Assembly: GCF_020623625.1 (NCBI RefSeq)
Contig: NC_060203.1
Location: forward strand, 558,001 to 622,000
From: Saccharomycodes ludwigii
Taxonomy: Eukaryota > Ascomycota > Saccharomycetes > Saccharomycodales > Saccharomycodaceae
Reading direction: 5' to 3'
Length of the DNA stretch: 64,000 nucleotides
The position numbers were made by a program, and so were the translations under genes. Of the stretch, positions 1,158-9,365 are shown piece after piece. Every line of letters starts with the position of its first letter. Position 1 is the first letter of the stretch. The notes beneath the pieces are model-generated. The model saw nothing but the letters and a program-made list of their open reading frames with translations, was not told the origin of the DNA and did not search any database.

Positions 1158-2501
1158 GAATAGTTATATTGAACAAATTTTACCTTGAATTTTTTTTTTT
1201 TTTTTTTCGCACCACGTTTTTTGTATTTTTTTTTTCCCCCCTCTTTTTGGTGACTTTGTTTTTAAAATAAATTAAATTGACCTAGAACCAAATGAATAAA
1301 AGAAACCAAAAAATCTGTATCTATTTAACTAGTTAATAAACTTATATAGAATACTTAAAGAAAGAATAAAAAAAAAAAAAAAGAAAAAATATCGATAGTT
1401 TATACATATATATTCATGTCTGTAAAAATTAATAAAAAAAAAATAATACATATGTAAAAAAAAAAAAAAAAAGAAACAAAAAACATGGAAATGATAATAG
1501 GTCTTGATCTTCATTTATAACGCTGAGAAATATGTTATTTATTCTGTTTTTTTTTTTAAAAAAAAACTTGTTGTTATTGTACTTGATAGCAATGTATATT
1601 TATAACTTTAAGAAAACTATTAAGTGGAAAATAATATACAAGTGTATTTGTATAAGAATGAATGATTCAACAGTAGAAATCTTGGTGTCATTAAGGATAT
1701 ACGGCGAGAAATCTTGGTAATCACTAAGTCTCTATTGAAAAAAGTTAGTCCATAAACTATCAAAGAGCATCAATGTATTAGGTAAGTTAGCAAAACATTG
1801 GAATTATTTAAGGTAAAAATATAAAATAATAGGGACATGTTATTTGCAATAGTTTCTTTTTTTCTTCACAACACAAATAACATTCGATGATGACAGCATT
1901 GTCAATAATAAAGTAAGACAAAAAGTAGACAAATAAATAAATAAAAAAAGACGTGATATTGATCACACAGGGCGTGAAACTCGGAGTCGGGAAGGGGGAG
2001 GGACAGTGCATTCTTTACTTGATTTCAGTAATGTTTAGGGAAATAATTATATATGTTAATAATCCATAAAACTTATTATAATTATTTGTAGAAATGATAC
2101 CGACATTTTAAGTTAAAGCGAAGGTAACAATTATAAAATTTGTAAATGCCGAGCACAGCATAATGATAAAATGTGCATAAAGTACAAAGAAAAAAGTAGT
2201 TGGTAGGGAGCTTGAGTCGGATGCGATAAAGGAAATATATTAAAAGGTGCTAAATTTTCAGAGACCTCCAACTTTTATTCTAATAATGATAAGTCTATTA
2301 CTAGTAATATTATTAACGAGAATAATTCCTTAACGCCATAATTCCCAAGTTTACAAGTAATATGGCATAAAGCTTTTTTTTTTTTTTTTTTTTTTTTTTG
2401 AATAGTATTATTCAGCATTTTTAGATGGCTCCTTTTTTTTTTTTTTGTTTTCAGCTTTATTACATATATTATTAGACTCGTGGTTAATATTATTTGTGAC
2501 A

Positions 2502-2852
2502 CACGTGGGTTTAAAGAAAGTATTAATTTATAATAACAAAAAAAAAAAAAAAATAATAATAATAATAATAATAACTGATATAGGCACAATACATGACATG
2601 TTTTGACATGTTTTAGACTATTTGTTTAGTAAAGTGGTTAATTAATTAGGATAAACGTGTCAAAAGAAAAGAATTGGATGGGGTAGTTTTCATTTCTTGG
2701 CGTAATATGTTTGGCTGGTTGTAAAATAAAATAAAAAAAAGAGCATAATATATGGCACGTTTAATGATTAAGCCGTTTATTGGGTTCTAAAAAAAAAGGA
2801 AAAAAAAAAAAAAAAAAAAAAATTAAAGGCCAATTCTTTGGGTCAACGTGCC
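2502..2852. promoter_or_regulatory. Cluster of four Pho4-type E-box sites
   Basis: Four CACGT-core sites lie about 0.7-1.04 kb upstream of the GIT1-type start. They are CACGTGGG (2502-2509, the high-affinity Pho4 form), AAACGTG (2653-2659), GCACGTTT (2755-2762, like PHO5 UASp1) and AACGTGCC (2845-2852). S. cerevisiae GIT1 is known to be induced on phosphate starvation through Pho4/Pho2. The motifs are seen directly; their use by Pho4 here is inferred. Confidence 0.6.
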
Positions 2853-2998
2853 AATATGAAATAACAATTTCATTTTAGTTTTAATGCTAATGTTTATTTG
2901 CTTTTCATATATTCATAATGCAAATCTTTTTTCTTAACATCTAATCACAATTTTTTTTTTGTTTTTTTTTTATTTTTTTTTAAATTTTTTAATTAAAT

Positions 2999-3008
2999 TT
3001 TTCACATG
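2999..3008. promoter_or_regulatory. Ino2/Ino4 site (UAS-INO)
   Basis: TTTTCACATG matches the full WYTTCAYRTG inositol-sensitive upstream element, about 535 bp before the GIT1-type ATG. S. cerevisiae GIT1 also responds to inositol through Ino2/Ino4, so this site combined with the Pho4-type cluster fits the gene call. Confidence 0.55.
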
Positions 3009-3183
3009 CACAGTAATGAAATTTTATAATGATTGGCTATCCTTTTTTTTTTATTGTTTCCATGCTAATTATTCTCGATTCCTAACAAAAGAAAAATTAC
3101 TGCTTTTGGGATAGATTCTTTTCTTCTTATTATTGTAATGTTCGATCGATAAAATATTAATAAAAAAATAGAGAATTAATACA

Positions 3184-3191
3184 TATATAAA
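3184..3191 (+). promoter_or_regulatory. TATA box of the GIT1-type gene
   Basis: TATATAAA matches TATAWAWR and is followed by G. It lies about 350 bp before the ATG, downstream of the Pho4-type and Ino2/4 sites, a usual arrangement for a regulated yeast promoter. AT-rich surroundings make chance matches common. Confidence 0.4.
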
Positions 3192-3542
3192 GTAGACAAA
3201 TGAATTGATTACATTCAACTTTTTTTTTTCTATTTTTTTCTAATTTTTTCCATTTTTTTTTTTTCTTTTAAAAGATTCATTTCTCTCTCTATCTATCTCT
3301 TACTTCCCATCAAAGAACTATATTTTAATTTAAGAAATCTTATTTTTTTTTTTAAAATTCCATGTCTATTCAATTCTTGTTACAACATCTTTTTTTTTCC
3401 TTATTTTTATCTTCTTGTGTTGACACTTTTTATTCATAACGACAGAACAAGTAAACTATAAGGAAACGGAAACGTCAGCCAAAGAGAAAAAGTAACGCAA
3501 AAAAAAAATTTTTTAATTTTTAAAGGAAAAAAAAAGAAAATC

Positions 3543-5379
3543 ATGTCTCCATTATTCAAAGAAGAAGATACTAACCTACATTTAACTAACCCCGTCACTA
3601 GAGATTTACCCCACTCTTTTAAAGATCTTACTACCGGCTGGATAGCTAAAAGTAGAAAAGAATTAAATTTACCATTTGTTGAAAAGTACACTTTGGAAGA
3701 TGAAACTTTCGTCCCAGAATTACTTTCCAAAAAAAGCACTGTTAGTACTGAGCACATTTCTAAGGACAATAATGTAGTTGGGGTTGTTGAAGGTGATTCA
3801 AACCAAGATGAAGAATACGATAGTGTTACTACTGATCTATCTGAAACCCCTAAGAAGCATAGCAATGTTTCCAAATATTGGCCTATATTCACTACAGGTG
3901 CGAGGCCTATTTTCAGATGGATATGTTAATAACTCTATTGGTACTGCTTCTACTTGTTTGAGTCAAATTTATGGTAAACAATACACTAATTCAAGAGCTA
4001 TACAAAACGTCAGCAGTATTGCTTTTGTTGGTACAGTTGTCGGACAATTAACATTTGGTTATATATCCGATAATTATTCCAGAAAAAATGCTATGATTGT
4101 TGGTACTTTAATCATTATCTTGTTTAGTATATTGTGTTCTGGTGCTTGGGGTGTGGGTACCACTGGTACTAATGCTGGTGGGTTGTTTGCGGCTGTTACC
4201 GCCTATAGATTTTTCTTAGGTATTGGTATCGGTTCAGAATATCCTGCTGGTTCAGTTGCTGCCCAGGAGGCCGCTAGTTTGTTACCGGCGGGCAAGAGAA
4301 ATAGATGGTTTTGTTGGTTTACCAACTTTATGATTGATTTCGGTTTTGTTGCAAGCAGTGTTGTTCCATTAGTCATGCTAAGAATTTGTGGCACTAAGCA
4401 TTTACAACCAGTTTGGCGTATAACGTTAGGTTTAGGTGCAATTCCACCCTTGTCATTATTTTTCATGAGATTGAAATATAAAGAAGGTGAAAAGTTTAAA
4501 AGAACCAAGTTTAATAAAACTCCCCCTTATTGGTTAAGTATTAAGTTTTATTGGTTTAGATTAGCAGTTGTCGCCATTATTTGGTTTATCTATGATTTTT
4601 CTGCTTATGCCTTTGGTACTTATTCATCTCTAATTTTAGATATTATTTTGGGTGAAGATACCTCGTTGGTTAAAACCTTTGGTTGGAACATTGTTTTCAA
4701 TTTATTTTATTTGCCAGGTGCGTTTATTGGCGCATACTTGGCTGATTATATCGGTCCGAGATTGACTCTGGTTAGCGGTGTTTTGTTGCAAGCCATGGTG
4801 GGATACATTTTGGCTGGGTGTTTTAAAACGTTAAGAACAGAAATTGGTGCATTTGTTGTTGTTTATGGTATTTTTATGGCGTTAGGTGAATTTGTTGGTG
4901 ATACCATCGGTTTATTGGCTTCTAATACTGTAGCAACTCCAATTAAAGGTCAATACTATTCTATTGCTGCTGCAGTGGGGAAAATTGGTGCTTTTGTTGG
5001 TACCTGGGTTTTCCCGGCTATTATTAAAAGTCATGGTGGATATGATTCAACTACTGGTTTGCAAGCACCATACTGGGTATCTTCATCATTATGTTGTTTT
5101 GCTGGTGTTTTAGCTTTGTTTTTTTTGCCTAGTGTTAATCAATATTCGAGTGGCCAGGAAGATAAAAGATATTTGGAATACTTAGCTGCTAATGGGTATG
5201 ATATTAGTAGTATGGGTTTACAAAATAAAAAAAGTGGTTCAACTGATGTTGAAAGTCTTGGTATTAGCTCTAGTATGGAAAACCAAAATATCACTGATAT
5301 GACCGTTACCGAAGTCGATAATGCTGAAGAAAAAGATAAAAACTTACACATCGATGTTGTACGTACTGAAACTTATTGA
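3543..5379 (+). CDS. GIT1: Glycerophosphodiester (glycerophosphoinositol) / phosphate transporter, MFS family, expressed through a +1 frame change
   Basis: This is a plasma-membrane importer of glycerophosphoinositol-type phosphodiesters and phosphate. ATG 3543 opens frame 1, which ends with TAA at 3927-3929 after 128 codons. The rest of the protein is in the +1 frame, open through to TGA at 5379. Frame 1 gives ...YWPIFTTGA and the +1 frame continues GLFSDGYVNNSIG, together forming the conserved first transmembrane segment (S. cerevisiae Git1 has ALFSDGYVNG). The switch falls on GCG-AGG-C at 3900-3906; skipping A3903 gives a 611-residue protein. Later family features include GYISDNYSRKNAMIVG, a GIGIGSEYP loop, GTKHLQPVWR, KFYWFRL, and the C-terminal LEYLAANGYD. 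About twelve hydrophobic segments follow the join. No other break is seen. S. cerevisiae Git1 has 518 residues; the extra length is mostly the acidic N-terminus. Programmed frameshift, sequencing error and recent indel all remain possible. Confidence 0.85.
3900..3906 (+). promoter_or_regulatory. Putative +1 ribosomal frameshift heptamer GCG-AGG-C
   Basis: In the zero frame the bases read GCG AGG C. Ty3 uses GCG-AGU-U and Ty1, ABP140 and similar genes use CUU-AGG-C: a P-site codon that allows +1 movement, then a codon read by a scarce tRNA. This site combines the Ty3 P-site codon with the Ty1 A-site context. Moving +1 past A3903 decodes Ala then Gly (GGC), exactly continuing the conserved family segment. 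The zero-frame stop comes seven codons after the GCG-AGG pair. Confidence 0.6.
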
Positions 5380-6283: not shown

Positions 6284-7034
6284 ATTGTTTGATGTAAATA
6301 TATTTCTAGATGTAATTATATACCTTATGGATGCAGTACACTCAATTGTATATTTGTTCTTGCTCTATATATATATATATATTAGAAAAGGAAAGAAAAG
6401 GGAAATATTAAAAAGCAATTAAATTGTATTAAATGGTATTATATTTTATAATGATTTTGTTGTTTTGTATACTGTATTCTCTTATTGGATTTTGTCTGTT
6501 AGTTATATTTACTATTAAAAAAATAATTTTATTTTTCTTGTTTCTTTTCTACGGAGGGAGAATAAAGTTATAACCCGGATTGCGTGGAACTATATTACTT
6601 GTAGCCCAGGGATCTCCGGTCGTCCAGTCGCAGAGAAAACTCTTGTTTATTTTAGTCAAAAAAGAAATAGTAAAGTAATTATATATATATATATATTTTT
6701 ATGACGAGACAAGACGAGATTGCGAAGGAGACACAAGATAAATAAGGAGGGAGATAATTGGAACAAATTCTTTGTTATTGTTATTGTTTTGTTTTTTTAT
6801 TGGTTTTTTTTTTAATTTTGATGCATAATATCAATTATTAGCGCTATCTTTAGTAAATGTTTATCTTGGCTATTATTACACTGTTTAATGTTAAGCAATA
6901 AAATAAAATGTATAAAAATAAATAGGGCATTATTAATCTTTAAATACATACTAGAAACTAAAATAAAAGTGACTTTTATCACTACTACTTACATTTACAA
7001 TAATAATAATACTAATATCAAAAATACTAATAGC
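6284..7034. other. Divergent promoter region DYN2 / SNX41
   Basis: About 750 bp between two divergent starts, with (TA)n runs near 6366-6383 and 6679-6698. A more GC-rich patch at 6570-6640 (CCCGGATTGCG, GATCTCCGGTCGTCCAG) contrasts with the AT-rich flanks and may hold factor sites. I could not assign any. Confidence 0.4.
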
Positions 7035-7326
7035 ATGGAACCATCCAGTGGTGTATCCTTTGTTGGATTACTACATGATAATAATGCTAGCGATGAAGAT
7101 AATAATAATAATAATATGATGTCAGATTCTAGAAATAACAAGACTCATGAAGAAATAGATTTTGGCAATGAACACAATGATGACGATGGATATGATGACG
7201 AAGAAGAAGAGGAAGAAGAAGAGGAAGAAGAAGATAATAACCCATATTCAGGAACAAACCATATGTATGCATCTGGTATTGCTGCAGTCCTAGAAGAACG
7301 CAATGACTCTGTTCATCATCGTTACC

Positions 7327-7367
<41 letters not shown>

Positions 7368-9365
7368 GATTATTCGTCATCTACAACAACAGCTAATAAT
7401 CCCTCTCACGAACAGTTAAAAGATAATTATTCACAACAATTATTTGGAAGCAACTATGCAACAATTAAAACCAATAGCGGCAATATTGAAAATTACTCCA
7501 ATAGCATCGCTTCTACTAACAGTAATAATATGAATAACCATAATGATAAAGATGAAGGTTATATTGTTTCCTACGCCGATTTGAAAAACATTGTCTCTAA
7601 TAGTAACGATAGTACGCACAATTTACCAGATGGCGCCACTGGAATTGGAGACAAGTATCGCTTCCCAATACAAATAATAGAAGCAGGTCAATACAGAAAC
7701 AGCCTGGGGAAATATGCTATTGGCTATACCATTTCATTTAATTCACAACTAGTCACAAGAAGATATTCTGAATTTGATAGCTTGCGCCAATCGCTATGTA
7801 AATTGTTGCCTACCATCATTATCCCAGTTATACCATCCAAGCATCCCTTAATCAAATATTTTTTGAACCCCTTAAGTGCTGAAAACGATTTGAAAACTAT
7901 TGAAAAACGGAAGCGCTTGTTGACTGTTTTTTTAAATAACTGTTATTCTCATAAAGAGATTAGGGATTGTGTTGTCTTTGCAAAGTTTTTAAATCCAGAG
8001 TACACTTGGTCTAAGGTGTTATCGTCCCCACCGATCTCTATTTTGCCAACCAATACATTATTGGCACCACCTTTGGCTCCAACTAAACCTAGCCCATTGC
8101 ATTTATTATTGCCAGTGCCCTCGCATATAGTTTTGGACCCGCAATATTTGACTGCCGCGGATTCCACAATTGACTCTCCAAAGTTTAGGAAATATGAAAA
8201 GTTTCTACATTTTTATTATGAAAATTGTCGTACTATTTGGAAAATTTCTAAACAAGAAAAACACCATTATGAACAGCTAACCAAATCGTTAGCTGAATTA
8301 GGTGCATATTATAATGCATTTAGTTTAGAAAATCACATATTTTCAACATATAAAGTTACTGAACTATCTAAAGGCATTGAAAAAATAGGCCAAGCCATTG
8401 ATATATCATATGTTTCTACTGAATTGTTGTTTGTTAATTTTCAAAAATATTTGGAGGAACCAGTTTGCGAAATGCTTCAATTGATTGAAGAATCTGAGAA
8501 AATTTTAAAATTTAGGAAACTAAAACTAACACAATTTTATATTATAGATAAGACCATTATTAAAAGAAATAAAACGTTGAAACAATTGGAAAACATGGAT
8601 ACTGATTTATCCAAGATTGAGGAAACTTTGGCCAAAAACGCTTCTGAATCTAGAACCGTTGCTAAAGTAGTGGAAAATTTAAAAAAACAAAAAATAATAT
8701 CATCAAGCAAGACTACGGATGGTATTTGTTTACCAAAGAGTGACCCAACTATGAAATCACACCCCTTTTTGGCAAGCACAAACAGTAGGGATGATATGAT
8801 AGATGCCAATGGTGCTTTGGGCCCCACCGGTAGCAATAATGCCATACTTACTTCAGAAACTGGGAATGGAAACGAGGATGATAACAGTAATACTACTCAT
8901 AGTAGTAGAAGAAGTAGCGTAAAAACAGTACACAATGAAAATTCTAATGCTATTATAAATAACAATAATGTCAGCATTAGTAGTGCTGATGTTAATGACA
9001 AAACATTGTCACCAACTCTTGAAGCTCAACAAGTTTCGCCTACATGTGATACCGATAGTACTGATAGATTGAATCAAAGCACCAGCAGCAAAGATACTAT
9101 TCTTTTGAAACAAGAGGAGGAAAGAAAAAGGGAAATAATTAAATTAAAAACAGAGTTGGAAAAGTTAAGGGATTGTTTTGAACTAATTAAGAAGGATATG
9201 AATGAAGTTAATTCCAGTATCGATTATGAATTAGTTACTTTATTTGCATATTTCGACGAAAAATGGGATTATATGATGAGAGTTTTAACCAAATGTATTT
9301 TATCGTGGATCAAAGATTCTTTAGATTCTTGGAAAAATGCAAGAGAATTGGTCAATCATATTTAG
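7035..9365 (+). CDS. SNX41: Sorting nexin, PX-BAR protein
   Basis: This endosomal sorting nexin retrieves cargo from early endosomes to the Golgi with Snx4. From ATG 7035 it has 776 residues. An acidic, Asn-rich N-terminus contains DNNPYSGTNHMYASGI, resembling the EEDNNPFVGTHHLYASGI segment of S. cerevisiae Snx41. A PX domain follows at about residues 210-322, with the RRYSEFDSLR phosphoinositide-binding core near 244-253 and a PVIPSKHPLIK loop. A helical BAR-like region runs to the C-terminus, interrupted by a Ser/Asn-rich linker. An in-frame ATG at 6888 would add 49 residues, but these look like translated AT-rich leader, so I prefer 7035. The low-complexity insertions make it longer than the 625-residue S. 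cerevisiae protein. The paralogous Atg20 is the main alternative, but the N-terminal motif and the position beside DYN2 (YDR424C-YDR425W order) favour SNX41. Confidence 0.85.

Follow-up and report, generated by a model that had tools for sequence, protein, structure and literature searches.

A frame break at GCG-AGG-C suggests a +1 frameshift in the GIT1 transporter gene of Saccharomycodes ludwigii

In the wine-spoilage yeast Saccharomycodes ludwigii, the gene for a GIT1-type transporter is split across two reading frames that meet at the heptamer GCG-AGG-C. With moderate confidence, we interpret this arrangement as a new, lineage-specific +1 frameshift gene that would yield a used transporter. 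The initial annotation had proposed programmed +1 shifting here; the proposal is favored by a real frame break, an unlikely heptamer, fitting tRNA genes, two conserved frames and a precedent in EST3, all read directly from the DNA, as well as by the lack of clear decay, and is disfavored by the pattern of conservation across species.

The gene lies on the plus strand and runs from the ATG at 3543 to a stop ending at 5379 of the window, the whole 64,000-nucleotide stretch of DNA that was analysed. Its parts are as follows:
3543..3929, plus strand: zero-frame part, 128 codons and a stop, conserved in the N-terminal TRDLPHS and in the residues leading to TTGA
3778..3926, plus strand: stretch with both frames open, an overlap of 149 nt
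3900..3906, plus strand: GCG-AGG-C, the heptamer at the frame junction where the +1 shift is proposed
3904..5379, plus strand: +1-frame part, 491 codons, MFS transporter

The frame from ATG 3543 ends at the stop at 3927-3929, and the +1 frame, free of stops from 3778, terminates with a codon whose last base is 5379. Zero-frame KYWPIFTTGA and +1-frame GLFSDGYVNN join without a gap, and crossing at GCG-AGG-C gives TTGA|GLFSDGY, with residues neither gained nor lost. The read-through product has 611 residues, the 491 after the junction matching Sugar_tr (2.9e-25) and MFS_1 (1e-20). Conserved protein is spread over two frames, with the second one in +1, and none of the starts, those in the +1 frame at 3808 (or 3865) included, yields it in a single frame. 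The main structural claims of the initial annotation, namely the early stop with the remainder in +1, a junction without loss or gain of a residue, a 611-codon length and an otherwise intact gene, therefore hold, the alignment being gap-free across the junction in 116/116 relatives.

The protein has an MFS domain; among the matches listed, Git1 proteins are the closest and several named relatives are Git1 or glycerophosphoinositol transporters. Among solved structures, the best relative is 7sp5 (E 1.8e-19), a phosphate transporter. A neighboring gene marks the ancestral place of GIT1:
6888..9365, plus strand: SNX41 (PX domain)

Locus tags (e.g. LAMI_0D11606/LAMI_0D11672) place GIT1 and SNX41 close together in Lachancea, Torulaspora, Eremothecium and Tetrapisispora as well. 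The gene is the GIT1 orthologue of Sd. ludwigii and occupies the ancestral locus; transport itself is predicted. Upstream of it lies a motif cluster:
2502..2850, plus strand: CACGTG/CACGTT cluster with sites at 2502, 2654, 2756 and 2845, of the type bound by Pho4

The 2.4-kb upstream region (1158-3542) holds six strand-wise CACGTK matches at five places, since one palindrome scores on both strands, where the density in the window predicts 1.0; the site at 2502 reads CACGTGGG, and one CATRTGAA site falls at about 3003 on the minus strand. We take such sites to be bound by Pho4 and Ino2/Ino4, and these factors to control GIT1 in S. cerevisiae. The earlier view that the promoter looks functional gains some support from the clustering of CACGTG/T motifs, as a matter of motif counts.

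How easily such a site could arise by chance was gauged by simulating single-base insertions over the whole read-through gene (n=7308). Only 3/7308 place CUU or GCG before AGG-C or AGU-U such that a +1 shift restores the exact protein, a number that rises to 6 when any P-site codon may precede AGG-C and to 65 when any may precede either AGG-C or AGU-U. A random hit on a usable heptamer is thus rare, as had been supposed, and the weight of this one coincidence is reduced by the many sites surveyed in the scan. GCGAGGC has a single copy in the window, counting both strands, and none of the four classic heptamers stands in frame in the 24 other open reading frames of the window (14,244 codons). 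In these, GCG is used 2.95 and AGG 6.32 times per 1000 codons; an AGG codon that is not very rare, at 6.3 per 1000, counts against the site. The whole genome contains 99 GCGAGGC sites. At the first 30, all on contig C1, the longest open frame is x-GC-GAG-GC on the same strand in 12 cases, on the opposite strand in 17 and the other frame in one; the zero frame is the longest in 0/30, and its longest stop-to-stop run is 84 codons. Since few would be expected anyway, this gives no evidence that in-frame GCG-AGG-C is avoided. The RNA around the site has no unusual structure that might act as a stimulator (z -0.63). Our search of the literature found neither GCG-AGG-C as a yeast frameshift site in print nor anything in print on ribosomal frameshifting in Sd. 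ludwigii.

The heptamer combines features of two known types of site. With the Ty3 gag-pol site, GCG_A.GU_U, it shares the P-site GCG, for which no re-pairing is expected, and a slow A-site codon starting with AG (PMC12661321), but its A-site context is AGG-C and it sits in a host transporter gene instead of a retrotransposon. With the sites of Ty1, ABP140/TRM140, YFS1 and LLP1 (CUU_A.GG_C) it shares AGG-C, a scarce tRNA-Arg(CCU) and an abundant tRNA-Gly for GGC, whereas its P-site codon is GCG, so that slippage of the peptidyl-tRNA is not expected. Heptamers by themselves shift with an efficiency of ~40% for CUU_AGG_C and ~10% for GCG_AGU_U in S. cerevisiae, and in A.GU_U or A.GG_C contexts, shifting is supported by P-site codons capable of little re-pairing (both PMC12661321). 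In that yeast, Ty3 shifting is attributed to the near-cognate tRNA-Ala(IGC) that reads GCG, and AGG-C sites are described as driven by scarce tRNA-Arg(CCU) together with abundant tRNA-Gly (PMC12661321, PMC5009743).

The tRNA genes of Sd. ludwigii reproduce this balance. They were sought by anticodon- and T-arm patterns, part of the loci being checked with ARAGORN, and the counts are lower bounds because patterns can miss genes. The copy number of tRNA-Arg(CCU), a check named beforehand, came out at one gene among two pattern matches, a supply that fits such a site, and tRNA-Arg(UCU) has at least 8 genes. The tRNA-Gly(GCC) signature is present in 13 copies among 15 pattern matches, of which 4 were checked. 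For alanine, we count 8 tRNA-Ala(AGC) genes among 11 matches, 3 tRNA-Ala(UGC) genes among 12, and no tRNA-Ala(CGC) gene: the CGC pattern matched two places in the genome, one inside a tRNA-Thr called by ARAGORN and the other with the tail of tRNA-Lys genes. Judged by gene content, the junction would pair a P-site codon read by a near-cognate tRNA with a slow A-site codon, and the balance is that described for S. cerevisiae.

A precedent for +1 decoding is found in the same genome. The EST3 family model matches G000:C3:560605-560242 on the minus strand in two frames, which meet at CTT-AGT-T with a zero-frame TGA directly after, and S. cerevisiae EST3 has the same split arrangement at CUU-AGU-U (PMC5009743). 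Given this split, Sd. ludwigii very probably already uses +1 frameshifting. EST3 resembles the transporter in being a cellular gene split by +1, yet its site, CUU_A.GU_U, is reported from many yeasts, while that of GIT1 is seen in one species only. As PMC12719033 describes it, no species branching before Kluyveromyces split from the other Saccharomycetaceae needs EST3 frameshifting; the main text of that paper does not name Saccharomycodes. The Sd. ludwigii break suggests that EST3 frameshifting reaches beyond Saccharomycetaceae, and it may move the dated origin or represent an independent event. The literature consulted names five chromosomal +1 frameshift genes for S. cerevisiae: EST3, ABP140, OAZ1, YFS1 and LLP1. 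The antizyme model (PF02100) has no match in the Sd. ludwigii genome, nor in any of 14 control genomes, and is uninformative; the YFS1 model (PF10544) has no match at E 0.001, with 2/14 control genomes matched.

We envision that a one-base insertion in ancestral GIT1, at the GA|GLF junction, created GCG-AGG-C. GCG would be read partly by the weakly paired, near-cognate tRNA-Ala(IGC), and scarcity of the cognate tRNA-Arg(CCU) would make the ribosome pause at AGG. In a fraction of ribosomes, the plentiful tRNA-Gly(GCC) would then enter at GGC, the overlapping +1 codon, as in the out-of-frame A-site mechanism without slippage that has been described for Ty3; these would complete the 611-residue transporter, the remaining ribosomes terminating at 3927. 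The efficiency would perhaps lie between that of Ty3 and that of Ty1, and the shifted output would presumably suffice for transporter function. Tentatively, as a possibility somewhat short of even, we extend this to a hybrid Ty3/Ty1 site fixed in a transporter gene, where competition between tRNA-Arg(CCU) and tRNA-Gly(GCC) would set phosphodiester uptake, in a young +1 gene of a cell made permissive by EST3-type decoding. That scarcity of the AGG-reading tRNA might tie uptake to growth state, as the initial annotation suggested, is speculative. If true, the frameshift reading would add a membrane transporter with a GCG-AGG-C site to the cellular +1 frameshift genes, illustrate their origin from indels tolerated by ribosomes, and put the no-slip mechanism to a natural test at a strong AGG-C A site.

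Conservation of the frame break in orthologues, which the initial annotation had proposed to look for, was not found: judged at the protein level, all 116 relatives pass unbroken through the junction, with GAGLFS in 105/116 and GSGLFS in 11/116. Sd. ludwigii is the only species in which the break is seen, and the shift site would accordingly be lineage-specific.

The unbroken proteins also count for a recent pseudogene, in which a one-base insertion has disabled GIT1 in the species or part of it and the heptamer is a coincidence, or a trace of useless shifting. We regard this as a serious possibility, though a doubtful one. The 491 stop-free codons downstream count for frameshifting: a neutral model, with indels set at 5 or 10% of substitutions, gives a probability of 0.05 that the frame is intact at ~1.3-2% divergence (3.9% when stops alone are counted). 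The probability is 0.5 at ~0.3-0.5%, so that a disabled copy would stay open with even odds up to this range. Two Sd. ludwigii strains differ by 1.59% overall, yet across 55% of the genome the difference is no more than 0.2% (PMC8567612); a break shared between strains, as this one seemingly is (see below), speaks against a pseudogene but need not be old. No Hanseniaspora name occurs among the 120 of 1313 GIT1 matches listed, many of which are nameless, and the sister genus may thus do without GIT1, which counts for a pseudogene. On the other side stand the small share of insertions (3/7308) that would fall on such a site, the ancestral locus of a gene to which nothing else in the genome comes closer than 33% identity, and the promoter motifs that have been kept.

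The rate of change gives no clear sign of decay. With Torulaspora globosa as the reference, distances to six Lachancea species come to 0.95 for GIT1, 1.26 for GPI17 and 1.20 for SNX41. The ratios to Lachancea against the outgroup are 0.97, 0.95 and 1.13, respectively, and here GIT1 and GPI17 are no different, which counts against constraint. GIT1 is thus not clearly accelerated. (For a comparison of strains, no protein named for Sd. ludwigii appears among the 120 of 170 SNX41 matches listed, nor among 89 GPI17 matches.) Divergence in the 57 columns that precede the break slightly exceeds that of Torulaspora (1.27 vs 1.14). A few conserved residues have changed, which speaks against constraint and for a recent pseudogene: 2/88 nearly invariant positions differ in Sd. 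ludwigii against a median of 0, and two or more changes occur in 21/117 sequences, Sd. ludwigii included, after 3/119 relatives shorter than 480 residues were dropped. In addition, a GDN motif is GDT in Sd. ludwigii, with Asn in 94/116 relatives and Thr in 0/116. The gene combines 491 open codons and no clear excess in rate with somewhat raised change at conserved positions.

Translation could, in principle, begin within the +1 frame and give a transporter without the N-terminal tail:
3808..3903, plus strand: a possible internal start, namely a +1-frame ATG with the 32 codons that lead up to the junction

No stop interrupts the +1 frame from 3778, and ATGs occur in it at 3808 and 3865. We consider such a start improbable, as ATGs at 3543, 3700 and 3772 all lie upstream of 3808, frame 0 follows the family alignment as far as TTGA and keeps the TRDLPHS tail, and the +1-frame leader MKNTIVLLLIYLKPLRSIAMFPNIGLYSLQVR has neither family residues nor TRDLPHS.

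An error of one base in sequencing or assembly, which the initial annotation had named, along with a fresh indel, as the main alternative, is more improbable still. Single-base errors do occur in long-read assemblies, but the NBRC 1722 assembly from which the window is taken (12.5 Mb, 7 scaffolds, one gap) combines PacBio reads with Illumina polishing (PMC8567612), the site has no homopolymer, and the position is also bridged in a protein that belongs to a different assembly. This deposited Sd. ludwigii protein, P0002, has 580 residues and comes from a 12,346-base contig, apparently of strain UTAD17, whose draft genome comprises 1,360 contigs (PMC7903802). It is identical, letter for letter over the 580 residues, to the window gene minus one stretch:
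3823..3916, plus strand: 94-nt gt...ag stretch absent from P0002, of length 3k+1, beginning GTGTTA and spanning the junction residues

P0002 by itself cannot prove the break in its strain, as the same product would result with or without the extra base. An unbroken frame, however, would need no 94-nt bridge, and the break is therefore likely present there too; from this sequence it is apparently common to a second strain. We judge the gap to have been introduced in annotation, to carry the gene model across this frame break. That 3823-3916 is a real intron, as the deposited model implies, has next to no likelihood: its removal restores the frame and yields P0002 exactly, but its 5' end is GTGTTA instead of the usual yeast GTATGT, and it would delete junction residues that are GAGLFS or GSGLFS in every aligned relative.

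Elsewhere in the genome, a second transporter gene, an open frame 33% identical to GIT1, lies at G000:C4:1429813-1431102.
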